Shown here in pieces: positions 14,780 to 57,729 of a stretch of 64,000 nucleotides of DNA. A program made the position numbers and the translations under genes. Origin of the DNA: Micromonospora sp. NBC_01740 (lineage in GTDB: Bacteria > Actinomycetota > Actinomycetes > Mycobacteriales > Micromonosporaceae); the NCBI RefSeq assembly GCF_035920365.1, contig NZ_CP109150.1, positions 992,001-1,056,000 on the forward strand, read 5' to 3'. The notes below the pieces were generated by a model, which had not been told where the DNA came from, searched no databases, and saw only the letters and a program-made list of their open reading frames with translations. Position 1 is the first letter of the stretch. Each line of letters begins with the position of its first letter.

Positions 14780-14804
14780 GCGAGCACAGGCCCGTCGGTC
14801 GGGG

Positions 14805-15928: not shown

Positions 15929-15938
15929 GCCCGGAACG

Positions 15939-16397: not shown

Positions 16398-16421
16398 AGG
16401 GTGCCGTCACGCCGGACCCCG

Positions 16422-17141: not shown

Positions 17142-17169
17142 CCGACCACTCTATTACGGTGCTCGGGCG

Positions 17170-17186
17170 ACTTAACGGTGGTAAGT
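17170..17186. promoter_or_regulatory. Candidate TetR operator
   Basis: acttaacggtggtaagt is a 17-bp interrupted palindrome (actta...taagt) between the TetR start and the divergent small gene, the usual place for an autoregulatory operator. Repressor binding is inferred. Confidence 0.5.
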
Positions 17187-17231
17187 TGCTCGACACGCGT
17201 TAGGTGACGGCGCCACAGAGGAGGCCTGGGC

Positions 17232-17459
17232 ATGCCCCTGATGCGGATCCATCTAGACACCGACCCGACGACCGCCCGCCGGGTCCTGGCCCTGCACCGG
17301 GCAGGGAAGAACCACCACGAGTCCCGGGACGCCGCCCGCAGCGAGGTCTGGCGGCACGGCCGCACGCCAGCCGCCGAGCCGGTCTTCGTCGGCGTCACCA
17401 ACGGCAAGCCTCTCCGCCTGATCTACGACGTGGAGGTCCACTTCGACACGACGCCCTGA
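17232..17459 (+). CDS. Small hypothetical protein (75 aa)
   Basis: A short protein starting MPLMRIHLDTDPTTARRVLALHRAGKN and ending RLIYDVEVHFDTTP. Its alternating acidic and basic surface and strand-helix-strand look suggest a small alpha/beta fold. I do not recognise the family. It starts at ATG 17232 after gaggcctgg. It is divergent from the TetR gene, so could be its target; toxin/antitoxin identity was considered but no partner is seen. Confidence 0.5.
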   Translation: MPLMRIHLDTDPTTARRVLALHRAGKNHHESRDAARSEVWRHGRTPAAEPVFVGVTNGKPLRLIYDVEVHFDTTP

Positions 17460-17550
17460 TGCGAGATCCGCGCAGACCGACGGCACGCCGACGGCGACGG
17501 TCAACCGGCCGGCTCGCGACGGTGCCCGGCAAGAGATGCCTGATGAAATT

Positions 17551-17627
17551 TGGAGCCCCCGGCCGGGATCGAACCGGCGACATCTCGCTTACAAGGCGAG
17601 TGCTCTGGCCAGCTGAGCTACAGGGGC
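17551..17627 (-). tRNA. tRNA-Thr (anticodon TGT)
   Basis: On the minus strand the gene reads GCCCCTG... and ends CGGGGGC-T-CCA, a 7-bp acceptor stem with CCA encoded. The D-arm (GCTCAGCTGGCCAGAGC), the anticodon stem CTCGC/GCGAG around loop CTTGTAA, and T-loop GTTCGATC are all present. Loop positions 34-36 are TGT, decoding ACA threonine. All arms pair normally, so it should be functional. Confidence 0.93.
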
Positions 17628-17958
17628 GTGTGGTGCCGACGCCAGCATAGCGACTGACGTCCGGATTTCCGCCGCGGCAGGCCCCCCGACCACCGGAAAC
17701 GTCTCCGCCCTCCTGCGGCGGACCGACATTGACGGTCGATTGATGTCCGCCCGTGCCCGAGTGACCGGAATGTCTATGCGGTCCGTCCCATCCCGTGCGC
17801 CCCGCCTTGGCAGGTGGCGGAAAGCCGTTTACCGTGCAGTGACACGGACGACATCTCGATCACCGAGAGGCTGCCCGTGGGCCGGCGCGTCCCGTGCCGG
17901 CCGCTCCTTCACTCGGATCGTCCGGCACGTTCCTGCCGGTGAAAGGAAGCACCCCATC
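17628..17958 (+). other. Non-coding region upstream of msiK
   Basis: 331 bases with no convincing gene. An AT-richer patch near 17730-17745 (ttgacggtcgattgatg) sits between cggac and gtccg inverted repeats and could be a promoter or operator. The msiK ribosome site gaaaggaag lies at 17941-17949. I see no stable terminator or riboswitch. Confidence 0.4.
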
Positions 17959-19050
<1,092 letters not shown>

Positions 19051-19061
19051 CGTACGACGAG

Positions 19062-19095
19062 ATGGGGGTGCCCGCCGATCGGCGGGCGCCCCCAT
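19062..19095 (+). terminator. Terminator after msiK
   Basis: atgggggtgcccgccg pairs with cggcgggcgcccccat (one wobble) around a tiny loop, 11 bases after the msiK stop. Confidence 0.85.
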
Positions 19096-19128
19096 CGTCG
19101 TCTCCGGCTGAAGGCCCCCGGACAGGCG

Positions 19129-19161
19129 AAGGGGCGGCCCGCCATCGGCGGACCGCCCCTT
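19129..19161 (-). terminator. Terminator after rlmB (possibly bidirectional)
   Basis: aaggggcgg pairs with ccgccccctt-like sequence ccgcccctt, extended inward by ccgcc/ggcgg after one mismatch. It lies 16 bases past the rlmB stop on the minus strand. Confidence 0.8.
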
Positions 19162-19176
19162 CTTCGTGTCTGTGGA

Positions 19177-20309
19177 TCAGCCCTCGGCGGCCCGGCGGCG
19201 CGCCACCTCGGCGAGGGTGACGGCCGCGGCGACGCTGGCGTTGAGCGACTCGACGTCGGAGACCATCGGGATGCTGACCGTCAGGTCGCAGGTCTCGCCG
19301 ACCAGCCGGGAGAGCCCCCGACCCTCGGAGCCGACCACCACGACCAGCGGGCCGACGGCGGCCTCCAGGTCGTAGAGGTCGGTCTCGCCGTCGGCGTCCA
19401 GGCCCACCACGAGGAAGCCGGCGTCCTGACAGGCCTTCAGCGACCGGGTCAGGTTGGTCACCTGGGCGACCGGTACCCGCGCCGCCGCACCGGCGCTGGT
19501 CCGCCAGGCGGTCGCGGTGATCCCGGCCGCCCGCCGCTCCGGTACGAAGACACCCTGCGCGCCGAAGGCGGCGGCGGACCGGATCACCGCGCCGAGGTTG
19601 CGCGGGTCGGTCACCCCGTCCAGCGCCACCAGCAGCGGGGCGGTCTGCTCCAGCGCCGCCGCGACGAGGTCCTCGAAGGGCTCGTACGCGAACGCCGGCA
19701 CCTGGAGTCCGATGCCCTGGTGCAGCACGCCGCCGGTCATCCGGTCCAGCTCGGCCCGGCTGACCTCCAGGATCGCGATGCCCCGGTCGGCGGCCGTCCG
19801 GACGATCTCGTTGATCCGGTCGTCGGCGTCGATGCCCTGGGCGGTGTAGAGCGCGGTCGCCGGCACCTGGGCGCGCAGCGACTCCAGCACCGGGTTGCGC
19901 CCGACCAGCAGCTCCGGCGTGTCCTTGGACGGGTTGGACTTGCGGCCCGGCGCGACCCGGGGGCCACCGCGACCGGTGGGCCTGGCGCCCCGGCCGCCCG
20001 TACCGCGCCCGCCGCCGGTCGGCACGCCCCGGCCACCGCCCTTGCCCCAGGTGGTGTCCTTGCTGCCCGGCTGGCCGATCTTGGGGGCGCGCCCCTCCTC
20101 GGCCGCCGCCCGGCGCTCCTTGTCCTGCTTCCAGGCGGTGCGCTGGGGCAGCTTCTCGGTGCCCGAGTAGGCCTTGTGCCAGGGCCGCTCGTCGGCGGGC
20201 AGGGTCTTGCCCCGCCCGGCGAGGGAGTCCTTGTTCTTGCCACCGGAGCCCTTCGGGGCTCCCGCCTTCGGCGTCAGACGCCGGCCACGGCGCTGCGAGT
20301 TGCCGGCCA

Positions 20310-43379: not shown

Positions 43380-44248
43380 GCTTGAAAGCCCCCGTTCACC
43401 AGCCCCAGCCGGATCAGATCGGTCAGTGGTTCCAGGATGCTGCACGAGCCGAAGCCGATCCACAGCGGGCGCGGGCCGTCCAGCCCGGCCTCGGCGTACT
43501 GCACCAGCGGGCGCGGGTCGGTCGCGGTGAGCAGCTCGGCGACCGACTCCACGGTGGCGCCCCCGGCGGCCGCCAGCGTCGCCGCCAGCACGTTGACGAA
43601 GCCGTGGTGGGTGAAGCCGGTCTCCGGGTCGAGGTGCCGGACCGCCTGGTGCAGCCCGGCGGTCAGCTTGAACGGCAGGTCCCGGTCCCGGCAGGCGCAG
43701 ATCACGGCGGCCAGCTCCGCCGGGGTGGGGAACAGCTCGGCGGCCAACCCGCCGGTGCGGAACTTCGCGGCGATCGGCAGGCCGTCGGCGCGGGCGGCGG
43801 CGAGCGCGTCCAGCGCCCCCATCAGCCCGAACGTGAGCGGCAGCTCGGCGTAGACGGCGTCGAGGGTGGCTGGACCGGCACCGGCGCGGCAGGCCAGCGC
43901 CACCAGCTCGGTCAGGCCGGGCAGCGGGTCCTCGCCACGCTTGGCGACCGCCGCCTCCACCTGGCGCACGCGGACGCGCGGGTCGGCCGTGGCCCGCACC
44001 TCGTCGAGCCGGTCGAGGGGCACGTCGCCGATCACCCCGACCGCGATCCGCTCGTCGGCGCCGAGCAGGCCCGCCACCTCGGGCAGCCTCGTGGCCGGGA
44101 CCAGGAGCGGGCCGACCAGGTCGGCGTACCAGGAGGTGCGGTGCCGCCGGTGCGCGGCGACGGCGTCGGGCAGCGGCGCGCTGCCGGGCGGGAAGACGGC
44201 GGCGTCGTCGACGAGGCCGTCGACGAGCGCGGGCACCTGCGTTGACAC
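43376..44248 (-). CDS. Unknown 290-aa protein coupled to fahA
   Basis: The protein is 290 residues, no membrane helix, and I do not recognise a named family. It starts MSTQVPALVDGLVDDAAVFPPGSAPLPDAVAAHRRHR; the mid part alternates strands and helices (IAVGVIGDVPLDRLDEVRA; LPLTFGLMGALDALAAARADGLPIAAKFRTGGL; DLPFKLTAGLHQAVRH; GFTHHGFVNVLAATLAAAGG), an alpha/beta-barrel-like look. His and Asp/Glu residues (KLTAGLHQ, FTHHGF) could form an active site. It is first in the leftward operon, with its stop overlapping the fahA start. Given its position it may be an auxiliary enzyme of homogentisate breakdown. Confidence 0.7.
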   Translation of the reverse strand: MSTQVPALVDGLVDDAAVFPPGSAPLPDAVAAHRRHRTSWYADLVGPLLVPATRLPEVAGLLGADERIAVGVIGDVPLDRLDEVRATADPRVRVRQVEAAVAKRGEDPLPGLTELVALACRAGAGPATLDAVYAELPLTFGLMGALDALAAARADGLPIAAKFRTGGLAAELFPTPAELAAVICACRDRDLPFKLTAGLHQAVRHLDPETGFTHHGFVNVLAATLAAAGGATVESVAELLTATDPRPLVQYAEAGLDGPRPLWIGFGSCSILEPLTDLIRLGLVNGGFQA

Positions 44249-44283
44249 GAGACAAGAATGTACGGGACGCTACAAGGAACGGA

Positions 44284-44312
44284 CAACAGCGTCCGATTAT
44301 CGGACGCCGTTG
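44284..44312. promoter_or_regulatory. 29-bp palindromic operator between fahA operon and hmgA
   Basis: caacAgcgtccga-tta-tcggacgcCgttg: 13-bp arms with one mismatch around a 3-bp centre. It lies in the divergent promoter region of the two homogentisate transcripts, 32 bases before hmgA and 36 before the 290-aa gene, so probably binds a dimeric repressor controlling both. The regulator is unidentified. Confidence 0.75.
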
Positions 44313-44343
44313 GATCGGTGAACGGGACGAACCGGGAGGCGAG

Positions 44344-45510
44344 ATGCCGTACTACCGCAGCGTCGGCGAGGTGCCGCGCAAGCGCCACACCCAGTTCCGC
44401 CAGCCCGACGGCAGCCTCTACGCCGAGGAGCTGATGGGCCAGGAGGGCTTCTCCTCCGACTCGTCCCTGCTCTACCACCGGCACGCGCCGACCGCGATCG
44501 TGGCGGCCGAGGAGTTCACCCCGCCGGCGTTCACCCGGGTGCCGAACCTTCCGCTCAAGCCCCGCCACCTGCGCACCCACAAGCTCGACGGCACCGGCGT
44601 CGACCCGGTGCTCGGCCGGCAGTACCTGCTCGCCAACGACGACGTGCGCATCGCGTACGTGCTGGCGGACCGGCCGTCCCCGCTGTTCCGCGACGCCACC
44701 GGCGACCACTGCCTCTACGTGGAGTCGGGCACCCTGCGGGTCGAGTCCACGTTCGGCGTGCTCGACGCGGTGCCCGGCGACTACGTCGTCATCCCCACCT
44801 CGACCATCCACCGGCTGGTGCCCACCGGCGACGCGCCGACCAGGCTGCTCGCCGTCGAGGCGGCGGGGCACATCGGCCCGCCCAAGCGCTACCTCTCCGT
44901 GCGGGGCCAGTTCCTGGAGCACTCGCCCTACTGCGAGCGCGACGTCCGGGGGCCGGACGCGCCGCTGCTGGTCGACGGCGAGGACGTGGAGGTGCTGGTC
45001 CGGCACCGCCGCGGCTGGACCCGCTACGTCTATGCCCACCACCCGTTCGACGTGGTCGGCTGGGACGGGCACATGTACCCGTGGGCGTTCTCCATCCACG
45101 ACTTCGAGCCGATCACCGGCCGGATCCACCAGCCGCCGCCCGTGCACCAGACCTTCCAGGGCCCCAACTTCGTGATCTGCTCGTTCGTGCCCCGCAAGGT
45201 CGACTACCACCCGGACGCGATCCCGGTGCCGTACAACCACCACAACGTCGACTCCGACGAGATGCTCTTCTACACCGGCGGCAACTACGAGGCCCGGCGC
45301 GGCTCCGGCATCGAACAGGGCTCGATCTCGCTGCACCCGTCCGGCTTCACCCACGGCCCGCAGCCGGGCGCCGCCGAGCGTTCCATCGGCGCCGACTTCT
45401 TCGACGAACTTGCCGTCATGGTCGACACCTTCCGGCCGCTGGACCTCTGCGACGCCGCGACCGCGTGCGAGGACGACGGCTACGCCTGGACCTGGGCCCG
45501 CCGCCCCTAG
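44344..45510 (+). CDS. hmgA: Homogentisate 1,2-dioxygenase
   Basis: A 388-residue cupin enzyme opening homogentisate's ring to maleylacetoacetate. The N-terminus (YYRSVGEVPRKRHTQFRQPDGSLYAEELMGQEGFS) and the C-terminal metal region (PFDVVGWDGHMYPWAFSIHDFEPITG; HHNVDSDEMLFYTGGNYEARRGSGIEQGSISLHPSGFTHGPQPG) carry the His, Glu, His iron ligands. Bacterial short type. ATG at 44344 follows gggaggcg. Divergent from the fahA operon across a shared palindrome. Confidence 0.95.
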   Translation: MPYYRSVGEVPRKRHTQFRQPDGSLYAEELMGQEGFSSDSSLLYHRHAPTAIVAAEEFTPPAFTRVPNLPLKPRHLRTHKLDGTGVDPVLGRQYLLANDDVRIAYVLADRPSPLFRDATGDHCLYVESGTLRVESTFGVLDAVPGDYVVIPTSTIHRLVPTGDAPTRLLAVEAAGHIGPPKRYLSVRGQFLEHSPYCERDVRGPDAPLLVDGEDVEVLVRHRRGWTRYVYAHHPFDVVGWDGHMYPWAFSIHDFEPITGRIHQPPPVHQTFQGPNFVICSFVPRKVDYHPDAIPVPYNHHNVDSDEMLFYTGGNYEARRGSGIEQGSISLHPSGFTHGPQPGAAERSIGADFFDELAVMVDTFRPLDLCDAATACEDDGYAWTWARRP

Positions 45511-45530
45511 GCGGACGATTCCGGGTGAGC

Positions 45531-45565
45531 GGTGCCGCGGTCCGGCAGGGGCGGACCGCGGCACC
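45531..45565 (+). terminator. Terminator after hmgA
   Basis: ggtgccgcggtccg and cggaccgcggcacc make a perfect 14-bp stem with a seven-base loop 20 bases past the hmgA stop. The rest of the 311-base gap to the precursor gene holds no gene that I can support. Confidence 0.9.
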
Positions 45566-45749
45566 TTCGTGCGCGCGGGGGCGGGCGGGCGTCGACCGCT
45601 CCGGCAGCCGCGTCCGCAGCGCCTCCGGCCTCCCACACATCAGCCGCGGGAGCGCACTTCCTTCTCATCGTCCGTCCACAGCCGTCGTACGGCCATCGGC
45701 GACTGGACGCTCGGACGAATAGTTCGTGGGCGGAGCTGACTAACATCTT

Positions 45750-45782
45750 GCGCACTGTCCATCTTGTCATCGACAAGTGCGC
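45750..45782 (+). promoter_or_regulatory. Nested inverted repeat upstream of thiopeptide precursor
   Basis: cttgtc-atc-gacaag (45763-45777) is nested within gcgcact (45750-45756) / agtgcgc (45776-45782). It lies 39 bases before the precursor start. It may be an operator or a leader hairpin; no clear -35/-10 pair is readable. Confidence 0.5.
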
Positions 45783-45821
45783 TTGTTCGTCGACGACATC
45801 CCCCTGGAACCGGAGTACACG

Positions 45822-46013
45822 ATGCGCGACATGACGGCCACGCTGGCCGACCTCGAAGACCTCAACCTGGCCGACCTGGAGGTGTCCGACCTGCTGGAGG
45901 TGCACGCCGTGCGCGACGCGGTGGCCCTGCCGGAGACCGGCGCCTCGGCGAGCACCTCCGCCGTCTGGCAGTGGCTGGGCTACTCGTCCTGCGCCGCCCA
46001 GCTTCCCCAGTAG
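45822..46013 (+). CDS. Lactazole-like thiopeptide precursor peptide (LazA-type)
   Basis: A 63-residue RiPP precursor. The leader (1-41) is acidic and Leu-rich (ATLADLEDLNLADLEVSDLL) and ends VRDAVALPETGA. As I recall LazA of lactazole, its leader ends LRDTVALPENGA, and its core ends SSSCAQPQDM. Our core, residues 42-63, starts SASTSAVW and ends YSSCAAQLPQ, keeping the Ser-Ser-Cys that makes oxazole, pyridine and thiazole. It holds two Trp, five Ser, one Thr and only one Cys. ATG at 45822 is preferred because ggag lies six bases upstream; an ATG at 45831 and an upstream GTG at 45777 are possible. All modification genes follow. Confidence 0.88.
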   Translation: MRDMTATLADLEDLNLADLEVSDLLEVHAVRDAVALPETGASASTSAVWQWLGYSSCAAQLPQ

Positions 46014-46049
46014 TCGTACCGGACCGGGGCTGACCGGTGGGGCCGGGGG

Positions 46050-46065
46050 ACGCCGACACCGGCGT
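46050..46065 (+). terminator. Weak hairpin between precursor and first enzyme gene
   Basis: acgccg-acac-cggcgt followed by ttcg; the stem is extendable by G-T pairs. Such attenuators commonly let precursor mRNA exceed enzyme mRNA. Confidence 0.4.
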
Positions 46066-46123
46066 TTCGCGGCCTCACCGGCTCGACCGGGGTCGGTGCC
46101 GACGACCGCGTACGGAGGAGACC

Positions 46124-48913
46124 GTGACAACCACCCGCCAATCCCCTGCCCCGCCGGTGTCGCCGGCACCGGGCGGCCGAGTCGCGCCGGAGGTCCAGGT
46201 CGCCCCGTACGTGCTGATCCGCAGGACGGCGGTCGACCTGCCGGCTGCCGGTCCGGCCGGACGGCACCTGCGTCGCCTCCAGGACCAGCTCGTCGATCGA
46301 CTGGTCGAGTGCCGGGCCCTCGGCCCCGAACTCACCGAGGAGCTGTACCGGCTCGGTGGTCAGGCCCCGACGGCGTACCGCCGGTCGGTCCTGCTACCGC
46401 TGCGGCGGGACGTACACAACGACCGGTCGCCGGCCAGCGACCTGCGCGCCCGGCTCGGCGACCTGCCCGACCGGCTGCCGGCGCTGGGGCGCTGGTTGCG
46501 GGCCCGGGCCGAGATCGACCGGCTCACCGGAGCCGTCGAAGCCGGGTCGGCTGCGGCGCTGGCCGAGGAGCGCGTCGCACTCGCCGCCCTGTGCGGCAGC
46601 GAGCCGTTCGGCCGGGCGGTCGCGTTGACCAGCCCTGAGCTGTTGGCAGCGGTGCAGCGGACGGCGGCGCGCGGCGGCGAGCCGGACGCCAGGGGTCGCA
46701 AGTCCGAACCCACCGTGCTCCGCTACGCGTTGCGCGCCACCACCCGGACCAGCCCGCTCTCCTGGTTCACCATCGTCGGCTGGGCCCCCTGGCCGGATGC
46801 GGAAGCCGTCCCCGCCCCGCTGGCGTCCCCGCCCAGCGAGGCGCCGCCGACCCACCTGGACCTCGCGGCGGGCCTGGACGTGACGACGGCGGGGGAACCG
46901 GTGGCGGTGACCCGTCCTCCCGCCAGCCTGGTCGCCAGCCTCTTCCTGGCCGGGACCAGCCGCCCGGACGAGATGCTGCGCACCCCGCACCGGCTCGCGC
47001 CCGGCACCCGCGTGCAGGACGGGCACGTCGTGTTCTACCGCGAGCACCCGACGACCGGCGCCGACGGCATGCCGGTGATCCGGGAGGAACGGGTCCGGAT
47101 GCCGCTGCGGCCCGCACTGGCCGCGATCATCCGGGTGCTCCGCGCCGCACCCGACGGACACCCGCCGGCGGCGCTCGTGGCGGCCCTCGGCCGAGGCGCC
47201 GCGCGCCCCGCCACGGACGCCGCCGAGGCCGAGCGGCTCGCGCAGCGTCTCGTCACCCAGCTCTGCGACGAACGCCTGCTGATCCCGGTACCGCCGACCA
47301 CCGAGCACGACCCGGCGGCGCTGGCGGCGATCGCCGACTGGCTCAACGACACCGGTGCCCGCGCCCTCGCCGACCAGGTACGGCACCTCGACAGGGACAT
47401 CCGGTCGCTGGCGGACGTCGACGCGGCGCGGCGCGGCCAGCTCGTACGTCGGATCGACGCCGGCTGGCACGAGGCCCTGTCGCAGCTCGGGGCCGCCGCG
47501 CCGGCCCAGGCGCCCGTCACCGAGGATGTCGTGCTACCCGGGCCGGTACGCCTGACCCGCCGGCCCGCGGACACCGCCGACCTGACCGCGCTGACCAGCC
47601 TCGCGCTGCTGTTCGACGAGGACCAGGTGCTGCGCCGGCTCCTGCGACACCGGTTCGTCGAGCGCTACGGTCCCGGGGCCCGCTGTGCCGACCTCGGCCA
47701 GTTCTTCGCCGAGATCGGCGCCGGCTTCGACGACCTGCCGACGGTGACCCCGGAGGGGGCCCTGGCGGGCGGTCCGATCGCCCGGGTGCCCGAGCTGGCC
47801 CAGCTGGCCACGCTGCGGCAGGAGGTGGTCCGGGCGGTACGCGCCGACGGCGGGAACGACGGCGTGGAGACCGTCATCGGTGCCGACCTGGTGGCCGAGG
47901 TGGCCGCGGCACTGCCCCGCTGGCTGCGGGCCCGGCCGGTGTCGTACGCCTTCTTCGGCCAGCACGGCCCGGACGGGTCGCTGCACCTCAACCACGTCTA
48001 CGGCGGCTGGGGCCGGTTCACCAGCCGCTTCCTGGACCTCTTCGGCGACAGCGGCATGCGCGCCGCGGTGGCCGCCCAGCTCCGCCGGGTGCTGCCCGGC
48101 CGGGTGGCCCAGTTCCGGCCGGTGCACGGTTTCAACGCCAACCTGCACCCGCTGCTGCTCGGCGAGGACATCGGCGACGACCAGCGGCTGGGCGGGCTCG
48201 ACCTCGCCTCGGTCGAACTGGTGCACGACCTGGCCGGCGACCAGATCCGGCTGCGCGATCCGGCCACCGGTGACCTGCTCGACGTGCTGTACCTCGGGTT
48301 CCTCTCGCCGCCGGCGCTGCCGGCCCGGGTGGCCGCGCTGCTCGGCGACCTGGGCAGCGGCGAGGTGGGGCTCCGCCACCTGGCCGCGACCCGGACGGTG
48401 GCCGGTCCGGGCGGGCAGGCCGTCGTCTCCGACCGGCTCCGCTGTGGCCGCGTCGTCCTCGCCCGCCGGAGCTGGCGCTTCGACGACGAGGCCGAACGGC
48501 ACCTTCGCGAGCTCGGCTCGCCGTCGGTCGCCGCCGCCGCGGCACTGCGGGCGGGCTGGGACCTGCCCGACCAGGTCTTCCTCAACCAGGGCAGCCGGCG
48601 CGACGGGCAGCCGCCCGCACCGGGCCACGCCGCGCAGCACCCCGGCGCCCCGGCCCGGCAGCCGTCGGAACGTCCGTCCGCCCCGCCGCCTCCCCCGGCG
48701 ATCGCCGGGCTCCGGGAGGCGGTCGCCCGGCCCAAGCCGCAGTTCGTCGACCTGGCCAGCCCGCTGCACCTGCGCTGCGTGCCCCGCTGGCTCGGACGGA
48801 TCACCGGCCGGCTGGTCGTCGAGGAGGCCCTGCCCCGCCCCGCCGGCCACGACCGGCCGCACCGGGTCACCGAACTGGTCGTCGAGACCTACCTCCCGGC
48901 GGCCCCCCGGTGA
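46124..48913 (+). CDS. LanB-type tRNA-dependent glutamylation enzyme (LazB-like)
   Basis: A 929-residue lantibiotic-dehydratase N-terminal domain protein. In thiopeptide routes this class transfers glutamate from Glu-tRNA to Ser/Thr of the core, the first step to dehydroalanine. PYVLIRRTAVDLPA, the RYALRATTRTSPLSWFTIVG block (family signature R-x-T-P-F/S), VSYAFFGQHGPDGSLHLNHVYGGWGRFTSRFLDLFG and HGFNANLHPLL are present. There is no C-terminal elimination domain, which is encoded separately in the last gene. GTG at 46124 follows ggaggag. Cytosolic. A Pro/Ala-rich insert at about 828-862 is odd. Confidence 0.88.
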   Translation: MTTTRQSPAPPVSPAPGGRVAPEVQVAPYVLIRRTAVDLPAAGPAGRHLRRLQDQLVDRLVECRALGPELTEELYRLGGQAPTAYRRSVLLPLRRDVHNDRSPASDLRARLGDLPDRLPALGRWLRARAEIDRLTGAVEAGSAAALAEERVALAALCGSEPFGRAVALTSPELLAAVQRTAARGGEPDARGRKSEPTVLRYALRATTRTSPLSWFTIVGWAPWPDAEAVPAPLASPPSEAPPTHLDLAAGLDVTTAGEPVAVTRPPASLVASLFLAGTSRPDEMLRTPHRLAPGTRVQDGHVVFYREHPTTGADGMPVIREERVRMPLRPALAAIIRVLRAAPDGHPPAALVAALGRGAARPATDAAEAERLAQRLVTQLCDERLLIPVPPTTEHDPAALAAIADWLNDTGARALADQVRHLDRDIRSLADVDAARRGQLVRRIDAGWHEALSQLGAAAPAQAPVTEDVVLPGPVRLTRRPADTADLTALTSLALLFDEDQVLRRLLRHRFVERYGPGARCADLGQFFAEIGAGFDDLPTVTPEGALAGGPIARVPELAQLATLRQEVVRAVRADGGNDGVETVIGADLVAEVAAALPRWLRARPVSYAFFGQHGPDGSLHLNHVYGGWGRFTSRFLDLFGDSGMRAAVAAQLRRVLPGRVAQFRPVHGFNANLHPLLLGEDIGDDQRLGGLDLASVELVHDLAGDQIRLRDPATGDLLDVLYLGFLSPPALPARVAALLGDLGSGEVGLRHLAATRTVAGPGGQAVVSDRLRCGRVVLARRSWRFDDEAERHLRELGSPSVAAAAALRAGWDLPDQVFLNQGSRRDGQPPAPGHAAQHPGAPARQPSERPSAPPPPPAIAGLREAVARPKPQFVDLASPLHLRCVPRWLGRITGRLVVEEALPRPAGHDRPHRVTELVVETYLPAAPR

Positions 48914-48965
48914 CCGGCCGGGCGCCGGCGTGCGACCGCACCACCGAGCCGAGTGGAGTCCAGCC

Positions 48966-50093
48966 ATGACCGAGCCGAGCACGACCGGACTGACTCCGAC
49001 CATCGACGTCGTGTGCCACTACCACGAGGAGGCCAAGGCATCGCTGCTGCGCGACGCCGTCCTGCCCGTCGCGGAGCGGTTGCGCGGTGCCGGGCTGGCC
49101 GTCCACCTGGAACGGCACTGGTTGCACGGCCCGCACGTGCGCCTGCGGCTACGCGGCCCCGAGGCGCAACGGGCCACGGCCGCCGCCGAGGCCGCCGAAC
49201 GGTTGCGTGGTCACCTGGCGGTGGCGCCGTCCCGGGCCGGGCTCGACGAGGAGCTGCTGCTGCGCCGGTCCGAGGCGGCCGGCCGGGCGGAACTCGTACC
49301 GCCCCCGTACGACCCGATCCACCCGGACAACACGGTGCTGGTGACCGACGGCGACCAGAGTGCGCTGGCCGCGCTGCTGGGCACGCCGGGCGCGGTCGAG
49401 TGCCGTGCCGACGTCCTCGCCGCCGGGCTGGCTCCGGTGCGGGTGTCGCTCGACCAGCTCGCCCTCGTCGGGGACGCCCAGGCCGCCCGGGTGGGCGTCG
49501 TGGTCACCGCCATGGCCGCGCACGCCGACACCTGGCCGGGACGGCTGCTGTCCGGCTACCACACCTTCCTGTCGCACCTGGAGGACTTCCTCTTCGGCGA
49601 GCGCGACGACCTCCTGCGCCCACGCTTCGCCGCCTTCGCCGACCGGGCCGGCGGGAGGTACCACGACCTGGTCCGCCAGGCGTCCACGCCGGACACCACC
49701 GAGCCGGTGGCTGCGGCGTGGCGGGCGTGGAGCGCGGCGGCGTGGCGGATCGCCGAGCGGGCGTACGACGCGGGCGCGCTCGACGGGGCGTTCTCCGCCG
49801 AGTTCCGGCGGCGTACCACCTCGTTCGACGACGCCACCGCGATCCGGTGGGACCTGAGCCGTCGCGGGGCGAGCGCCTACCACCAGGCGCTGGAGGCGTC
49901 GGGCTTCCAACGGATCGCCGCGAGCCGCGAGTTCCAGGTCTACCGGTTCTGCACGAACATGCTCTACCAACTGCTGACGCTCTGCGACGTCGCGCCGCTG
50001 GAGCGGTACCTCGGGGCCCACCTGCTCGCCGAGGCCACCCAGGAGATCCACGGCGTGACATGGCAGGACGCCCTCACCGCCCGCACCGGGTGA
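48966..50093 (+). CDS. Thiopeptide-type biosynthesis protein, [4+2] pyridine synthase candidate (LazC-like)
   Basis: A 375-residue SpaB_C-like protein. In thiopeptide clusters this class joins two dehydroalanines in a formal [4+2] cycloaddition that closes the macrocycle and forms the pyridine, releasing the leader. Features are VVCHYHEEAKASLLRDAVLPVAERLRGAGLAVHLERHWLHGPHVRLRLRG at the start and QVYRFCTNMLYQLLTLCDVAPLERYLGAHLLAEATQEIHG at the end. It follows LazB by 52 bases. Position and size match LazC; the reaction is family-based. Confidence 0.82.
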   Translation: MTEPSTTGLTPTIDVVCHYHEEAKASLLRDAVLPVAERLRGAGLAVHLERHWLHGPHVRLRLRGPEAQRATAAAEAAERLRGHLAVAPSRAGLDEELLLRRSEAAGRAELVPPPYDPIHPDNTVLVTDGDQSALAALLGTPGAVECRADVLAAGLAPVRVSLDQLALVGDAQAARVGVVVTAMAAHADTWPGRLLSGYHTFLSHLEDFLFGERDDLLRPRFAAFADRAGGRYHDLVRQASTPDTTEPVAAAWRAWSAAAWRIAERAYDAGALDGAFSAEFRRRTTSFDDATAIRWDLSRRGASAYHQALEASGFQRIAASREFQVYRFCTNMLYQLLTLCDVAPLERYLGAHLLAEATQEIHGVTWQDALTARTG

Positions 50094-50109
50094 CCCGGGT
50101 GGAGGCGAC

Positions 50110-53028
50110 GTGGGTGAGGTGACCCTGCGACCGGGCACCCTGGTCCGGGCGGTCGAGGGCGGGCTCCTCGTGAGCGGCTGGCGGGCCAGCTCGGTGGTGA
50201 CCTGCCCGCCGGTCGCCGGCGAGCTGTGGCAACGGCTGGAGCCCTCCCTCCGCCGGGGGCTCGACCCGGCGACCGCCACCCTGGGACTGCCCGACCGGAC
50301 CGCCAGGGCGGTGGGCTGGCTGCTCGGTCTCCTCGCCGAGCACGACGTCCTGGTCGACGTCCGGGTGCCGCTGGACGGCCATCCGTTGGCGGCCTGGCTG
50401 GCGGGACTCGCGCAGGATCCGGCCGACGCGTTGGACGCGGTGTCGCGGTGCGCGGTGGCGGTCACCGGCGAGGGCGACCTTCCACCGGCCGTACGGGCGG
50501 CACTGACCGCCTCCGGGCTCTCCACCGCGCCTGGAGAGGCTCTCCGTGCCCTGCGGGAGGTGCCCGGGGACGGCGGCGGCGCGGACCTGGTCGTGTGGGT
50601 CCGGACGGAGGACCCCGGCGAGCGTCGGGAGCCGCCCGTTCCCCCGTGGCCGGAGGCGGCACCGCGACAGCCCGGCTCCCTGCGGCCCGCGGTGCTGCCG
50701 GTGACGATCCGGCCGGACGGCGCACTGATCGGCCCGCTGGCCCCGGCCGGTCACCCGGCCGCCGCCGGCCAGGCCGTCGCAGGCCAGACCGCCCCAGGCC
50801 AGACCGCCGCAGCCACGGACGCCGGTCCGGCCGGGTCGGCGACCGACCACCGGCTGCTGCCGTTCCTCGTGGCACACGAGGTGGTACGCGTGCTGGCCGG
50901 GCTCGCCGACGGCACGGCGCTGTCACTGCGCGGCGGGGTCGTCCAGCGCGTCGGCGAGCCGACCGACCCACAGCCCTGGCCGCCGGCCGCTCGGACCGAG
51001 GCGCTTGCCGCGCGGACCGGGGCACCCGCCACGCGGACCGGGGCGCCCGCCGGTGACGCGGCGCTCGCCGGTGACGGGGCGCCGGGCACCGGACCGACGG
51101 CGGGAGCGGTGCCGGCCCGCCCACCGGTCGGCCTCGACACCGCGTCCCTCGGTTCGGGCGCAGCGGAGGACGGCCCGGTGCGGGTCGTCGGGGACGACGA
51201 CCGCCTGGTCCGGGCGATCGCCGTCAGCGCCTCGACCGTACGGCGGACGGATCGGCCCGTGGTGGTGGGCGTCGCGGCGGACTGGCCGGTGGCCCGGCAC
51301 CTGGCCGAGCAGCGGGCCGCCCACGCGGCCGGCAGGGCGTACCTGCCGGTGCGGGCGCGCGGGACGGCGATCGAGGTCGGCCCGTTGAGCAACCCCGGTG
51401 CCGGCGGCTGCCTGCGGTGCGCCGACGCCCGGCGGGAGGCCGTCCTCGGCGCCGGCAGCACCGCCACGCTGCTCGCCGGCGGCCGGTCGCTGCCGCTGCC
51501 GCCGTACTGGCACGGGCTGGTCGGCGAGCTGGTCGCCGGCCAGCTCGCCGACCACGCCGATCCGCGCGTGGCCAGCGTGCTGGCGGTGCGCGACGGCGCG
51601 ATCAGTCGGCACCTGATCAGGGCGGTGCCGGACTGTCCGGACTGCCCCGCCCTGCCACCCGACTCGGCCGGGGCCGCCACGATCGCCCTGCGCCCCCGCC
51701 GGCAGCCCGCACCCGACCGCCTGCGGGTCCGTCCGGGACCGCCGGACCTGGCGGTGCTCCGCGCCGAACTGGTCGATCCCCGCTACGGGCCGGTGACGCA
51801 CGTCCACACCGACCGGCAGGGCCCGCTCGCGCTGGCGGCGGCCGAGATGCCCGTCCCCGGCCGCTCCGGTCGGGTCGGTGGATACGGGCGCGCGGCGGAC
51901 CAACCGACCGCGCAGGTGCTGGCCCTGCTGGAGGCGGTCGAACGGGAGGCCGGCCGCTGCCCGCAGGCCCGCCGGACGACCACGCTGGGCAGTTACCGGG
52001 AACTCGCCGCCGACGCCGTCGCTCCCGCCCGGCTGGGCCTGCCGGAGCCCGAGGCGGTCCGCCACCCCGGGTACCGGCTGGACCCCTTCACCCCGGACAC
52101 GGTGACGTCCTGGGTGTGGGCGTACGACCTGGCGGGTGATCGGCCCGTCCTCGTGCCGGAGCACGCCGCCTACTACGGGGTGGACCGTGCCGGGGCCGCC
52201 CGGTTCCTCTACGAGTCCTCCAGCGGCTGCGCCGTCGGTGGCTGCCTGGAGGAGGCGATCCTGCACGCCTGCCTGGAGACGATCGAGCGGGACGCCTTCC
52301 TGCTCACCTGGTACGCCGGCCGTACGCCGCCGGCTCTGGCGCTGCCGCCCGACGTCGATCCGCTGACCCGGCACCTCGCGGACCGGATCGCGGCGGAGGG
52401 CTACCGGTTGCACCTGCTCGACATCACCAGCGACGTCGGGATACCGGCCGTCTGGGCCCTCGCCGTCACCGACCGACCCGACCGGGGCGCGACCTTCTCC
52501 GCCGCCGGGGCGCATCCCGATCCCCGCCGGGCCGCCGCGGCGGCGGTCCTGGAGGTCGGCGTGAACGTGACCGTCGCGCCGAAGGTGGCCCGCCCGCCGC
52601 GGGACCGACTGCTCGCCATGCTCGCCGATGCCGACCTGGTCGGGGATCTGGGGGACCACGCCGCGCTGCACCTGCTGCCGCAGGCCCTGCCCCGGTTCGA
52701 CTTCGCGCTGCGGGAGGCCGCCGCCGGCCCGGCGCGACCGTTCGACGAGCACTTCGCCGGCTGGCGCGAGCGGTGGCTGCACCCCGACCTGACCGAGGTG
52801 CTGCGCAGGGTCGTCGACGCGATGGCCGCCGCCGGAACGCCGCCGCTGGCGGTGGACCAGACCGGGCCGGGCGAACGACGCCTCGGCCTGGCCGCCGTGA
52901 AGGTCCTCGCGCCCGGGGCCGTGCCGATGACCTTCGGGCACCTCAACCGGCGGGTCGACCTGCCGCGCCTGCGGCAGGCCCGGCTCGCCGCCCCCGACCA
53001 CCTGATCCTGCCCCACCCGTTCCCCTGA
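50110..53028 (+). CDS. Fused leader-binding E1-like plus YcaO cyclodehydratase (LazD-LazE fusion)
   Basis: A 972-residue TOMM cyclodehydratase that forms azolines from Cys/Ser of the core. The N-terminus (1-100) resembles the RRE winged helix; an E1-like domain follows with a Cys4 zinc site: C434/C437 (GGCLRCADARREA) and C509/C512 (DCPDCPA). The YcaO part (about 545-972) has ATP-binding blocks GRAADQPTAQVLALLEAVEREAGR, SSGCAVGGCLEEAILHACLETIERDAF and AAAAAVLEVGVN, and ends PHPFP, the PxPxP motif. Lactazole has these as two genes; here they are one chain. A Gln/Thr/Ala-rich linker (about 210-340) with AGQTAPGQTAAATD-like repeats is atypical. GTG start after ggaggcgac. Confidence 0.9.
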   Translation: MGEVTLRPGTLVRAVEGGLLVSGWRASSVVTCPPVAGELWQRLEPSLRRGLDPATATLGLPDRTARAVGWLLGLLAEHDVLVDVRVPLDGHPLAAWLAGLAQDPADALDAVSRCAVAVTGEGDLPPAVRAALTASGLSTAPGEALRALREVPGDGGGADLVVWVRTEDPGERREPPVPPWPEAAPRQPGSLRPAVLPVTIRPDGALIGPLAPAGHPAAAGQAVAGQTAPGQTAAATDAGPAGSATDHRLLPFLVAHEVVRVLAGLADGTALSLRGGVVQRVGEPTDPQPWPPAARTEALAARTGAPATRTGAPAGDAALAGDGAPGTGPTAGAVPARPPVGLDTASLGSGAAEDGPVRVVGDDDRLVRAIAVSASTVRRTDRPVVVGVAADWPVARHLAEQRAAHAAGRAYLPVRARGTAIEVGPLSNPGAGGCLRCADARREAVLGAGSTATLLAGGRSLPLPPYWHGLVGELVAGQLADHADPRVASVLAVRDGAISRHLIRAVPDCPDCPALPPDSAGAATIALRPRRQPAPDRLRVRPGPPDLAVLRAELVDPRYGPVTHVHTDRQGPLALAAAEMPVPGRSGRVGGYGRAADQPTAQVLALLEAVEREAGRCPQARRTTTLGSYRELAADAVAPARLGLPEPEAVRHPGYRLDPFTPDTVTSWVWAYDLAGDRPVLVPEHAAYYGVDRAGAARFLYESSSGCAVGGCLEEAILHACLETIERDAFLLTWYAGRTPPALALPPDVDPLTRHLADRIAAEGYRLHLLDITSDVGIPAVWALAVTDRPDRGATFSAAGAHPDPRRAAAAAVLEVGVNVTVAPKVARPPRDRLLAMLADADLVGDLGDHAALHLLPQALPRFDFALREAAAGPARPFDEHFAGWRERWLHPDLTEVLRRVVDAMAAAGTPPLAVDQTGPGERRLGLAAVKVLAPGAVPMTFGHLNRRVDLPRLRQARLAAPDHLILPHPFP

Positions 53029-53041
53029 AGGAGAGCCGAGC

Positions 53042-54820
53042 ATGGCTCGCTGGTCCGCCCTGCACGTCCACCTGCACGCCGGCTCCGAGTGCACCGAGAC
53101 GGTGCTGCGGGAGCACATCGTGCCGACCACGACGGACCTGCTCGCCCGGGGCGAGATCTCCTCCTGGTTCTTCGTCCGGTACTGGGAGGGCGGCCCGCAC
53201 CTGCGCTGGCGGGTCGCCGACGCGACGCCGGAGACGGTACGGCGGATGCGCGCCGGGCTGGTCGAAGCGGTGGCCGCGCTGCCGCCACCGGCCCGGGAAC
53301 TGCGCCCGGCGGACTGGTACGCCCAGTTCGGAGTGCACACCTCCGCCCAGTCCGACGACACCGACCAACCCGACGGGACCGACCGGCCCGACCGGCCGGG
53401 CGTGGGGCAAGAGACCGGCGATGGGCCGGAGCTGGGCTGGCAGCCGCACGGCACGGTGGTCGAACAGCCGTACCGGCCGGAGGTCGACCGGTACGGCGGC
53501 CCGGACGCGATCGACGCGGCCGAGGAACTCTTCGCCGCGTCCAGCCGGGTCGCCGCGGCTGTGCTCGGCGCGCCACCCGCCCGCCGCCGGTCGACGGCCG
53601 TGGACCTGCTGTTCGGGTTCCTCACCGCCAGCGGCCTCACCGGGCACGAGGCGGTCCGGTTCCTGCGCGGCTACGCCAACGGGTGGACGCTGGTGCCCGA
53701 GGCGAACGGTCAGGACCTCGGCCTGGCCCTGATCGCGGCGGAACGCGACTTCCACGCCGACGCGTCCGTCTACCCGGCCCGGCAGCGGCTCATCGCCGAC
53801 ATCGTCACGCGCGGCAGGGGCGCCGCCACCTCCGTGAACTACTGGGCGGACGAGGTCGCCGCCTACGTCGAGCGGCTACGGGCGCTCGACGGGCAGGGCC
53901 GGCTGCACGGCACGGTGCCCGGCATCCTCGCGTCGCAGCTGCACATGCTGCACAACCGCCTCGGACTGAGCATCCCGGCCGAGTGCCACCTCGCCTGGCT
54001 GGCGTCGCTGGCGTACGGCGCACCGGCCGCAGCGCCGGACTTCCACGCCGACGGGATCGACGCCCCGGACCGCGCGTACCACCAGGGGTCGAAGTTCGTC
54101 CGTACGCGGTGGCCGAGCCAGCGTCCCCGTACCGTCGAGCCCGCACCGGGTCGCCCCCTCCCGTCCGACGCCGTGACCCTGGCACTGCCCGAGCCGACGC
54201 CGGGCGCGCTCGCCGACACCACGCTCGCCACGGTGTTGCTGGAGCGCCGCACCCGGTACGACTTCGGCCGAGCGGAGACCGGCGTGGCGGACCTGGGCCG
54301 GCTGCTGCGCTATGCGGCGGGTGACACCGCGCCAGCGGCCGACGGTCAGCGACGACTGGCGTACCCGACGCCGGGCGCCCTGGCGACCACCCGGCTGCTG
54401 GTGCTTCCCCGCCGGATCGCCTCGGTGCGGGCGGCACTCTACGAGTACCTGCCGGAGCGGCACGCCCTCCGGCGGGTGGCAGCCGATCCGGGCACCGACC
54501 GGCTGTCCCGGGTCGCCCCGCAGTTCGCGCCCACCGGTCCCGACGTCGTCCCCGGCGCCGACGGGCTCGACGTCGAGACGGTGCCGCTCTGGCTGTTCGT
54601 GGTCGCGGACCTGCGCCGGGCCCGGGCCCGGTACGGGCTGCGCGGCTACCGGTTCTCCGCCATGGAGACCGGCCACCTCGCCCAGAACCTGCTGCTCGCC
54701 GCGACGGCCCTCGGGCTCTCCGCCGCCCCGCTCGGCGGATTCTTCGACGACGAGCTCAACCACCTGCTGCTGCTCGACGGGCTGGACGCCAGCGCCCTCT
54801 ACGCCCTCGCCCTCGGCTGA
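53042..54820 (+). CDS. Fused glutamate-elimination plus SagB-type azoline dehydrogenase (LazF-like)
   Basis: A 592-residue bifunctional protein. The N-terminal half (1-290, SpaB_C-like: WSALHVHLHAGSECTETVLREHIVPTTTDLLARGEISSWFFVRYWEGGPHLRWRV) should eliminate glutamate from glutamylated Ser to give dehydroalanine. The C-terminal half (from about 350) is a nitroreductase/SagB flavin domain (ATVLLERRTRYDFGRAE; MQ-like ETGHLAQNLLLAATALGLSAAPLGGFFDDEL) that oxidises azolines to azoles. This fusion is exactly the LazF type. ATG at 53042 has a gaaggagag site 13 bases after the previous stop. Residues 102-137 are a polar low-complexity insert (DDTDQPDGTDRPDRPG). Confidence 0.9.
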   Translation: MARWSALHVHLHAGSECTETVLREHIVPTTTDLLARGEISSWFFVRYWEGGPHLRWRVADATPETVRRMRAGLVEAVAALPPPARELRPADWYAQFGVHTSAQSDDTDQPDGTDRPDRPGVGQETGDGPELGWQPHGTVVEQPYRPEVDRYGGPDAIDAAEELFAASSRVAAAVLGAPPARRRSTAVDLLFGFLTASGLTGHEAVRFLRGYANGWTLVPEANGQDLGLALIAAERDFHADASVYPARQRLIADIVTRGRGAATSVNYWADEVAAYVERLRALDGQGRLHGTVPGILASQLHMLHNRLGLSIPAECHLAWLASLAYGAPAAAPDFHADGIDAPDRAYHQGSKFVRTRWPSQRPRTVEPAPGRPLPSDAVTLALPEPTPGALADTTLATVLLERRTRYDFGRAETGVADLGRLLRYAAGDTAPAADGQRRLAYPTPGALATTRLLVLPRRIASVRAALYEYLPERHALRRVAADPGTDRLSRVAPQFAPTGPDVVPGADGLDVETVPLWLFVVADLRRARARYGLRGYRFSAMETGHLAQNLLLAATALGLSAAPLGGFFDDELNHLLLLDGLDASALYALALG

Positions 54821-54834
54821 GGGCGGGTCCTGCG

Positions 54835-54949
54835 GGCCAGCCGACGGACCGGGCGGTCCCCGTCAGGCCAGCCGACGGATCAGGTGGTGCCGACGGATCA
54901 GGTGGCCCCGACCGGCCAGCCGACGGATCGGGTGGTGCCGACCGGCCGG
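54835..54949. repeat. About 30-bp tandem repeat between convergent genes
   Basis: ggccagccgacgga recurs at 54835, 54866 and 54914, each followed by ccgggcgg- or tcaggtgg-like and ggtgccgacc sequence; one unit contains an internal 18-bp duplication. It fills the gap between the thiopeptide cluster and the TPR gene. Confidence 0.8.
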
Positions 54950-54956
54950 TGCCGGC

Positions 54957-55982
54957 TCACGCCGTGGTGCGGGACAGCACGGCGAGTTCGGCGGCGACCG
55001 CGGCGAGGATGGCGAGCACCAGCGGCCACGGGGTGCCGACCAGGGCGTAGAGCAGGATCAGGGCCGGGGCGGCGGCCGCCGCGTAGACGGCCAGGGCCAG
55101 CGTGCGGTCGGAGCGGAGCAGGCTCGGCAGGATGGTCCGGGACAGGCCGGGCAGCCGGGCGGCGAAGCGCCAGACCACCAGCGCCCCGCCGAGCGCCGCG
55201 AACGCCGCCGCGACGCGGGACAGCCCGGCGCTGCCCGGCGCCATACAGGCGATCAGCACGGCGGTGATCATCGTCCAGCCCGCGCCGTAGACCACGAGCT
55301 GGCGCAGGCCGAGCGAGATGGTCCGGCCGGAGTCGACCCGCCCGGGGCTCATCGACGCGGCCTCGGCGAGGTGTTCCAGCGCCTCGCTCCAGCGCCGCTG
55401 CTCCAGCCGGAGCACGCCGATGTCGTGGCGGGCCTCGGCGAGCTGCGGGTCCAGCCGCAACGCCTCCCGGTAGGCGCGCTCGGCCAGGTCGAACATCTGC
55501 ATGTTCGCCGCCACCAGCCCGAGCACCAGGTGCGCCTGGGGATTCTCGGGTGCCAGCTCGATCCCGCGCCAGGCCGCGTTCAGCGCCGGCTGCCCGTTGC
55601 GCGAGCCGGCCAGGATCGCGGCGGCGCTGCTCTGCGCGTACGCGTCGTCGGGGCCCAGCGCCAGGATCCGGTCGGCGGTCCGGGCCGCCTCGGCGTACTC
55701 CTCCAGATCGCCGAGGGCGAGGGCGCGGGCGACCAGCGCCGGAACGCTGTCGGGGGCGGCGGCGACCGCGGCGTCGGCGGCGGTGCGCGCCTCCGTCGGC
55801 CGCCCGGCCGCGAGGTGGACCCGGGACAGCATGGTCAGCGCCCCGGCGTCGGCCGGGTCCAGGGCGACGGCGTAAGAGACCTCAGCCGCGGCCTCGTCGT
55901 AGCGACCGAGTTCGGCGAGGAGCTGGGCGCGTTGGAGGTAGCCGTCGGCGGCGGAGCGGTCTGAGGTGGCGTCGCTGGACAT
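54957..55982 (-). CDS. TPR protein with C-terminal membrane helices
   Basis: A 341-residue protein with several tetratricopeptide repeats in the first 210 residues (GYLQRAQLLAELGRYDEAAAEVSYAVALDPADAGAL; ALALGDLEEYAEAARTADRILALGPDD; GLVAANMQMFDLAERAYREALRLDPQLAEARHDIG). Four hydrophobic segments follow (about 230-335: TMITAVLIACMAPG; AAAFAALGGALVVW; LALAVYAAAAAPALILLYALVG; PLVLAILAAVAAELAVLS). It is probably a membrane-anchored scaffold. Unrelated to the thiopeptide cluster, from which it converges. It precedes ispF by 10 bases in the leftward order. Confidence 0.8.
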   Translation of the reverse strand: MSSDATSDRSAADGYLQRAQLLAELGRYDEAAAEVSYAVALDPADAGALTMLSRVHLAAGRPTEARTAADAAVAAAPDSVPALVARALALGDLEEYAEAARTADRILALGPDDAYAQSSAAAILAGSRNGQPALNAAWRGIELAPENPQAHLVLGLVAANMQMFDLAERAYREALRLDPQLAEARHDIGVLRLEQRRWSEALEHLAEAASMSPGRVDSGRTISLGLRQLVVYGAGWTMITAVLIACMAPGSAGLSRVAAAFAALGGALVVWRFAARLPGLSRTILPSLLRSDRTLALAVYAAAAAPALILLYALVGTPWPLVLAILAAVAAELAVLSRTTA

Positions 55983-55992
55983 CGCGGCGAGC

Positions 55993-56475
55993 CTAGGCGG
56001 CCGGAGCCTCGTACACCAGGGCCACCGCGATGCCGGTGAGCCCCTCGCCGCGCCCGGGGAAGCCGAGGCCGTCGGTGGTGGCCGCGGAGACGGTCACCGG
56101 CGCGCCGACCGCCTCGGAGAGCACCCGCTGGGCCTCCTCACGGCGCGGGCCGATCTTGGGCCGGTTGCCGACCACCTGCACGGACACGTTGCCGATCGCG
56201 AAGCCGGCGGCCCGCACCCGGCGGGCGCTCTCGGTGAGCAGGGCGACGCCCGACGCGCCCGCCCACTCGGGCTGGCCCACGCCGAAGTTGGCGCCCAGGT
56301 CCCCGAGGCCGGCCGCCGAGAGCAGCGCGTTGCAGGCGGCGTGCGCGGCCACGTCGGCGTCCGAGTGCCCGGCCAGGCCGTCCTGGTCGGGCCAGTGCAG
56401 GCCGGCCACCCAGCACGGCCGGCCCGCCTCGAAGGCGTGCACGTCGGTGCCGATGGCCACCCGGGGAACGATCAT
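55993..56475 (-). CDS. ispF: 2-C-methyl-D-erythritol 2,4-cyclodiphosphate synthase
   Basis: A 160-residue enzyme of the non-mevalonate isoprenoid pathway. GTDVHAF (metal His/Asp), [25 protein letters not shown] and VGNRPKIGP with [16 protein letters not shown] are conserved. It forms a trimer in the cytosol. ATG at 56475 lies 16 bases from ispD, and carD-ispD-ispF is the standard actinobacterial order. One interesting link is the UbiA prenyltransferase at 62.8 kb, which uses isoprenoid diphosphates. Confidence 0.95.
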
Positions 56476-56491
56476 GAGAAGAGGGTACGCG

Positions 56492-57220
56492 TCAGGCGCC
56501 CGTGGCGAGCAGATGCTCGGCCAGCGCCAGGTCGAACGGGCGGGTGACCTTCAGCGCGTACTCGGAGCCGGGGACGCAGGACACCGGGACGCCCTGCTTC
56601 TCGACCAGGCCGGCGTCGTCGGTGAGCGGGTCACCGGCGGCGGCGTGCGCGGCCGTCAGCACCGCCCGGCGGAAGCCCTGCGGGGTCTGCACCGCGCGCA
56701 GGGCGGAGCGGTCGACGGTGCCGAGGACGACCTCGTCGGCGCCGACCTCCTTGATCGTGTCGACGACGGGCAGCACCGGGATCACCGCGTCGTGTCCGGC
56801 GCGGACGGCCGCCGCGACGGATTCCACCAGGTCGGGCGGGGTCAGCGCCCGGGCGGCGTCGTGCACGAGGACGATCTCCGGGCCGGCGGGCACCGCCGCG
56901 AGGGCGGCGGCCACCGACGCCTGCCGCTCGGCGCCACCGGGCACCACGGTCACCGGGGCGACCGGGGCGAGCAGCTCACGTACCGCCGCCACCTCGGCGG
57001 CCGGGGCGGCCACGACGATGGTGTGCACCGACGGCGCGGCGGCGAGCCGGCGGACCGCGTGCACCAGCAGGGGTTCCCCACCGAGCAGGCGCAACGCCTT
57101 GGGGCGGCCGGGGCCGAGCCGTACGCCAGCACCGGCCGCAGGCACGAGGACCGCGACGTCACCGCACGGATTGAGCTGCGCGGTCACGTCGCGGTCCTCG
57201 GTGGTTTGTTCGCTACGCAT
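56492..57220 (-). CDS. ispD: 2-C-methyl-D-erythritol 4-phosphate cytidylyltransferase
   Basis: A 242-residue nucleotidyltransferase making CDP-ME from MEP and CTP. The CTP loop ([29 protein letters not shown]), the [18 protein letters not shown] metal block and [12 protein letters not shown] are conserved. It follows carD by 23 bases and precedes ispF by 16, an operon. Confidence 0.95.
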
Positions 57221-57243
57221 CGGGTACGACGATGCTGCGGGGA

Positions 57244-57729
57244 CTAGGCCTCGGTCAGGACCTTGTCGAGCAGCGTCTCCGCCTCGTCCTTGGTGCTCTT
57301 CTCGGCCAGCGCGACCTCGCCGACGAGAATGTCACGGGCCTTAGCGAGCATGCGCTTCTCACCCGCGGAGAGACCCCGCTCCCGCTCCCGACGCCACAGG
57401 TCGCGGACGACCTCGGCGACCTTCAGCGGGTTACCGGAGGCCAGCTTCTCCAGATTCGCCTTGTAACGCCGCGACCAGTTGGTCGGCTCCTCGGTGTGCG
57501 GTGCACGGAGCACGTCGAAGACCTTGCCGAGGCCCTCTTCGCCGACCACCTCGCGCACACCCACGATCTCGGCGTTCTCGGCGGGCACCCGGACCGTCAG
57601 GTCACCCTGTGCGACCCTCAGGACGAGGTATTGCTTAGGCTCGCCCTTGATCACCCGAGTCTCGATTGCCTCGATGAGTGCGGCCCCGTGGTGGGGGTAA
57701 ACAACGGTCTCGCCGACACTGAAAACCAT
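57244..57729 (-). CDS. carD: CarD-family RNA polymerase-binding regulator
   Basis: A 161-residue general transcription factor: N-terminal RNAP beta-binding Tudor-like domain ([57 protein letters not shown]) and C-terminal DNA-contacting helices ([45 protein letters not shown]). It stabilises open complexes at rRNA and other promoters. It starts the carD-ispD-ispF group. The long upstream gap has a 15-bp palindrome. Confidence 0.95.

Follow-up and report, generated by a model that had tools for sequence, protein, structure and literature searches.

A thiopeptide-type gene cluster on the lactazole plan with a fused cyclodehydratase in Micromonospora

Gene content of the cluster and its insertion site

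In the window, a stretch of 64,000 nucleotides from Micromonospora sp. NBC_01740, five intact plus-strand genes at 45822-54820 are arranged as A-B-C-DE-F, which is the lactazole gene order. An earlier note on this DNA had proposed a complete thiopeptide-type cluster in an actinomycete other than Streptomyces, and the matches of these genes in Pfam, NCBIfam and PDB confirm that the cluster is real. The gene set of the thiopeptide class is present, with a YcaO protein and its RRE partner, a LanB-type dehydratase, a pyridine synthase, and a precursor. The lazA-like precursor gene (45822..46013, +) encodes a peptide of 63 aa with a Pfam Thiopep_pre match of 50.9 bits. Its leader (residues 1-41) ends in LPETGA and is followed by the core (residues 42-63), SASTSAVWQWLGYSSCAAQLPQ. 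The 22-residue core of the earlier note stands, and the absence of LazA similarity, which the note had named as grounds for rejection, is not seen; the leader end LPETGA|S is of the LazA type.

The second gene (46124..48913, +) encodes a lazB-like, LanB-type Ser/Thr glutamylation enzyme with the Pfam domain Lant_dehydr_N; its putative start codon was placed from the ribosome-binding site, and a phmmer search of PDB at 1e-3 returned no match for it. The lazC-like pyridine synthase (48966..50093, +) matches NF045556 and, in PDB, PbtD and TbtD. Its Tyr334, found in 27 of the 30 aligned relatives, aligns with the PbtD tyrosine in whose place 8EJZ and 8EJY have Phe or Ala. The last gene (53042..54820, +) encodes a bifunctional F protein (Pfam Lant_dehydr_C and Nitroreductase) composed of a glutamate-elimination domain (residues 4-324) and a SagB-type dehydrogenase domain (residues 401-592); by sequence alone, the nearest PDB entry is a putative nitroreductase.

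The fused cyclodehydratase D-E (50110..53028, +) begins with an RRE (residues 1 to ~85), followed by a variable linker, an E1-like domain (410-562), and a YcaO domain (593-972) with the C-terminus PHPFP. Because Pfam and NCBIfam gave no match within residues 1-400, the N-terminal part was subjected to profile and fold tests. The nearest solved structure to the RRE is that of PbtF, and the AlphaFold model of the RRE part alone has a pLDDT of 83.6; for the whole D-E protein, modeled from an alignment of only three rows, the value is 35.5. By PDB sequence alone, the nearest relatives of the YcaO domain are LynD, MusD, and TruD. Separate LazD and LazE proteins are characteristic of lactazole-like clusters, whether or not usage makes them a defining feature; here D and E form a single ORF in all five Micromonospora clusters examined, and the fusion occurs in none of the 22 other loci. 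A frameshift artefact is ruled out, as five genomes have the fusion without a stop.

The whole insert (45511..54961, no strand assigned) is absent from a close relative, G103. In blastn, the corresponding locus of that genome (L065) aligns with window positions 44063-45510 at 97.9% and 54962-57482 at 96.9%, with nothing between, and in this empty site ~50 bp separate the hmgA stop from the 3' end of a TPR gene. The insert of ~9.45 kb contains only the five cluster genes, and no transporter, regulator, protease, or resistance gene was seen among its ORFs; laz has a size of 9.8 kb (PMC7210931). The empty site also rules out the neighbors hmgA, TPR, and ispF as cluster members.

The window genome, G031, and G077 have the cluster at a common site, between hmgA and the TPR gene; the examined stretches around the clusters of Micromonospora sp. 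MW-13 and M. sonchi revealed none of these flanking genes. The TPR gene was found in 155 of 160 Micromonospora genomes, and the site was inspected in the best 30 of these 155 loci. Among these 30, three contain the cluster, 25 have hmgA at most 1.5 kb away from the TPR gene, and two (L072 and L074) have no hmgA in the stretch examined. Most of the 30 loci (L064-L093) share the hmgA-TPR-ispF-ispD-carD neighborhood, which corresponds to window positions 54957-57729. The gap between hmgA and the TPR gene varies from ~50 bp in L065 and ~400 bp in L066 to more than 1 kb in L071, L082, and L083, and is possibly an insertion-prone spot.

Conservation and occurrence

The order A-B-C-DE-F, with F also encoded by one ORF, is retained in all five Micromonospora genomes. 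The lactazole gene order with fused D and E, as described in the earlier note, is supported. In all ten pairwise comparisons dN/dS is below 1 throughout, with ranges of 0.12-0.38 for the precursor, 0.35-0.49 for LanB, 0.12-0.29 for the pyridine synthase, 0.41-0.56 for D-E, and 0.34-0.46 for F. When the window D-E protein is compared with its four relatives, constraint is strongest on the YcaO domain (0.16-0.30); the linker, at 0.54-0.75, is the least constrained region in three of the four comparisons. Such constraint on the YcaO domain suggests that azole formation has been kept despite a core with a single Cys. The precursor has 63 aa in all five genomes, and the cores are near-identical: at core positions 1-16 the amino acid changes only at position 6 (A/V) and position 9 (Q/R), while five further columns vary synonymously only.

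A contig scan using the pyridine synthase as the query gave three loci; the identities of this protein are 83% in Micromonospora sp. MW-13, 74% in M. sonchi, and 46% in a Pseudonocardiales MAG. Matches at E 1e-30 or better occur in five of the 160 Micromonospora genomes, the window genome included. In the family sample, 16 of 300 genomes spread over 8 of 44 genera match (two of the 16 are among the five Micromonospora), and in the class 11 of 394 do so, again including the window genome; all these counts refer to the genomes and loci examined (160 of the genus, 300 of the family, 394 of the class). Among the seven other genera with a match in the family sample, lactazole-type clusters that include a fused F occur in four (g10, g16, g34, g39). 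In two more (g21, g29), LanB and the pyridine synthase are of the lactazole type and the parts of F are separate, and one (g11) lies outside the lactazole-type clade. The lactazole kind is already known, common, and abundant, with 251 of 508 predicted thiopeptide clusters being lactazole-like (PMC7210931). Together with the clusters in the four other genera, this makes a host outside Streptomyces unremarkable. Among the genomes examined, the nearest relatives of the enzymes lie in thiopeptide-type clusters, and not among the non-thiopeptide TOMMs that the note had allowed for as a refutation.

Conflicting gene trees

Phylogenetic trees were built for 25 loci containing all genes: five from Micromonospora, 15 of the lactazole type (including L057), and five others. 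Incomplete loci (L005, L040, L056), a locus with two clusters (L052), the distant L061, and L038 and L039, which repeat L003 and L004, were left out. The p-values given below are optimistic, as the groups to be tested were defined after inspection of the first trees. In the LanB tree, the Micromonospora proteins group with the lactazole-type ones (support 100/100), and their grouping with L058, a thiopeptide cluster from the same family (G218), is rejected (p 5.5e-5). The pyridine synthase tree gives the same lactazole-type grouping (97/97), and here neither Micromonospora with L058 (p 0.064) nor Micromonospora with both L058 and the lactazole type (p 0.377) is rejected. In the YcaO tree the Micromonospora domain is sister to L058 (100/99), the group with both L058 and the lactazole type has support of 54/21, and a group with the lactazole type is rejected (p-AU 1.8e-5). 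Thus, the link to lactazole drawn in the earlier note holds for LanB and the pyridine synthase and fails for YcaO. Both parts of F are placed weakly with L058, the elimination domain with support of 59/53 (lactazole type, p 0.027; both, p 0.124) and the dehydrogenase domain with 55/15 (lactazole type, p 0.094; both, p 0.408).

The conflict between the LanB and YcaO trees is firm, and that involving F is suggestive. Because LanB and the pyridine synthase group with those of lactazole and YcaO groups with L058, one of the two clusters appears chimeric: either the Micromonospora cluster or L058 seems to be a mosaic of a LanB and pyridine synthase from the lactazole lineage and a YcaO, perhaps also F, from another thiopeptide lineage. 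A simpler history would make the Micromonospora clusters a plain sister group of lactazole that has merely diverged, all genes sharing one past and the YcaO tree being misled by rate differences. The gene order, matching both lactazole and L058, fits such a history, as do the non-rejected pyridine synthase grouping with L058 and the fact that L058 is a single long branch. We nevertheless consider it unlikely, given that the same data reject both the LanB grouping with L058 and the YcaO grouping with the lactazole type. Based on the gene content, domains, conservation, insertion, and tree conflict, we therefore prefer, with a probability of roughly 0.8, a compact lactazole-type thiopeptide pathway in which this cluster or L058 is a mosaic, its chemistry, ring size, and order of steps being predictions.

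With the laz cluster of Streptomyces lactacystinaeus (MIBiG BGC0000606, via PMC7210931) the Micromonospora clusters share the A-B-C-D-E-F order, the bifunctional F, and the lack of tailoring genes, as well as the leader end LPExGA|S, the SSCA motif at the ring closure, and LanB and pyridine synthase proteins of one clade. They differ from it in the fusion of D and E, a YcaO of another lineage, one core Cys instead of three, a predicted 41-membered ring instead of a 32-membered one, and Ala2 and Tyr13 in place of Trp2 and Ser10. Identities to L057, whose core starts with SWGSCSCQASSSCAQP as that of lactazole does, are 39% for LanB, 42% for the pyridine synthase, 44% for YcaO, and 35-41% for the F pieces. 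L058 has the same gene order and a 52% identical YcaO, but its D and E are separate, its core contains 8 Cys, and its LanB and pyridine synthase are just 32-33% identical. Among solved structures, those of thiomuracin and GE2270 enzymes (Tbt, Pbt), namely PbtD/TbtD for the pyridine synthase and the PbtF RRE for the RRE, come closest; they are distant, the pyridine synthase scoring 37-50 bits to TbtD/PbtD. Tailoring genes are present in the thiomuracin and GE2270 clusters. Overall, the thiopeptide-type cluster at this locus is real and follows the lactazole plan without being a strict member of the group, because its cyclodehydratase is fused, its YcaO comes from another lineage, and its core is azole-poor.

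Predicted core processing and product

Searching the loci with a sequence pattern yielded at least 43 candidate precursors; this search missed at least two others and found none in L056, L059, and L060. Each of the five Micromonospora cores has a single Cys; of the 38 other candidate cores, one (L051) has one Cys and 37 have two to eight. Alignment on the SSCA motif equates Ser14-Ser15-Cys16-Ala17 with lactazole Ser11-Ser12-Cys13-Ala14. In lactazole, residue 11 is converted to an oxazole and residue 13 to a thiazole, and Ser12 is built into the pyridine (PMC7210931). The Laz enzymes require seven core residues (PMC10683472); five are present here, Trp2 being replaced by Ala2 and Ser10 by Tyr13, and the S10A change in lactazole abolished thiopeptide formation (PMC7210931). 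Since two of the seven are absent, the LazC rules may not carry over.

In the predicted pathway, the RRE of D-E would bind the leader, and the YcaO domain would convert Cys16 and probably Ser14 into azolines; their oxidation by the dehydrogenase half of F would yield a thiazole and an oxazole. LanB would glutamylate Ser1, Ser15, and perhaps Ser3, Thr4, and Ser5, with Glu-tRNA as the donor, and the elimination half of F would then yield dehydroamino acids. Finally, the pyridine synthase would join Dha1 and Dha15, expel the leader as an amide, and close a ring of 41 atoms. This size follows from the rule 3n-4, derived here from the ring sizes in PMC7210931, which gives 41 atoms for the Micromonospora core (Ser1/Ser15, n = 15) and 32 for lactazole (n = 12); a 41-membered ring would thus be expected if closure follows lactazole. 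As of 2020, known thiopeptide rings had 26-35 atoms (PMC7210931). Applied to the lactazole core ending at Pro16, our mass formula returns 1401.40, which is the value for lactazole A. For the window core with two azoles and 0, 1, 2, or 3 additional dehydrations, the predicted [M+H]+ values are 2229.98, 2211.97, 2193.96, and 2175.95; the cores of MW-13 and M. sonchi have other masses, and any trimming of the tail would reduce all of these values.

Closure at Ser3, Thr4, or Ser5 would instead produce an ordinary 29- to 35-membered thiopeptide and a longer expelled leader. These residues are invariant in the five cores, and such sizes fall inside the known range (PMC7210931); Ser1, however, is likewise invariant and directly follows the LPETGA boundary, placed as in the lactazole-type precursor L057, so we regard closure elsewhere as rather improbable. 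A pyritide-like product, with a pyridine and no azole and with the azole genes as relics, seems very unlikely. The core with only one Cys would suit it, and enzymes of Micromonospora rosaria make pyritides without azole genes (PMC9247985). The mro system shares with the present cluster a LanB-type enzyme, an elimination protein, a pyridine synthase, and an azole-poor ring, but differs in having precursors without Cys and no azole genes. Here, Cys16 is invariant in the five cores, and the YcaO and dehydrogenase are intact in all five genomes, the YcaO under the constraint described above.

Very probably, the cluster makes a macrocyclic modified peptide belonging to the lactazole type of thiopeptides; its ring may be unusually large and its heterocycles few, and a new thiopeptide scaffold is plausible. 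More tentatively, at somewhat less than even odds, the family could represent a natural 'minimal' thiopeptide. Its dehydratase and macrocyclase would then be of the lactazole type, its azole module would stem from another lineage and be reduced to a single RRE-YcaO protein, and the product would have a 41-membered ring with eight consecutive unmodified residues and two azoles only. What seems unusual here is the lineage conflict, the D-E fusion, and the single-Cys core, with its 41-membered ring if lactazole closure holds. In open-licence literature, screened by titles and abstract openings, no paper named this cluster or a 41-membered thiopeptide.

According to laboratory work on lactazole, few core residues are required, and the rings obtained in vitro range from 14 to 62 atoms (PMC7210931). 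The Micromonospora clusters may be a natural family that uses such freedom, with a large ring, one Cys, and a long unmodified stretch. Such a family, together with its single-chain RRE-YcaO enzyme, would add a further pathway that is compact and open to engineering, after that of lactazole. The tree conflict, in turn, suggests that nature can exchange the azole and macrocycle halves. The occurrence of the cluster in five species makes the core prediction testable by mass.

Other thiopeptide-type loci were observed as well. The window genome has a second, distant cluster (G000:C1:4258001-4278000, locus L061, ~4857-19993) in which Pfam identifies a BTAD-type regulator, two Lant_dehydr_C proteins, a dehydrogenase, and a YcaO; its D-like and LanB-like proteins match those of the window weakly and have no Pfam hit. 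The L061 precursor has the core SGHLSPVVSGCSCGSACYFHY and a leader with LPVDVF, resembling LPMDVF of a PbtA leader fragment. In L052 (G674, 3287-19629) two thiopeptide clusters with four precursor genes lie back to back on opposite strands. The lactazole-type clusters L040, L041, and L043-L049 from other genera of the family each have two different precursors, one with a short core ending in ASCSCCYVT and one with a Cys-rich core beginning with SGSSS, and perhaps form two products with one enzyme set.
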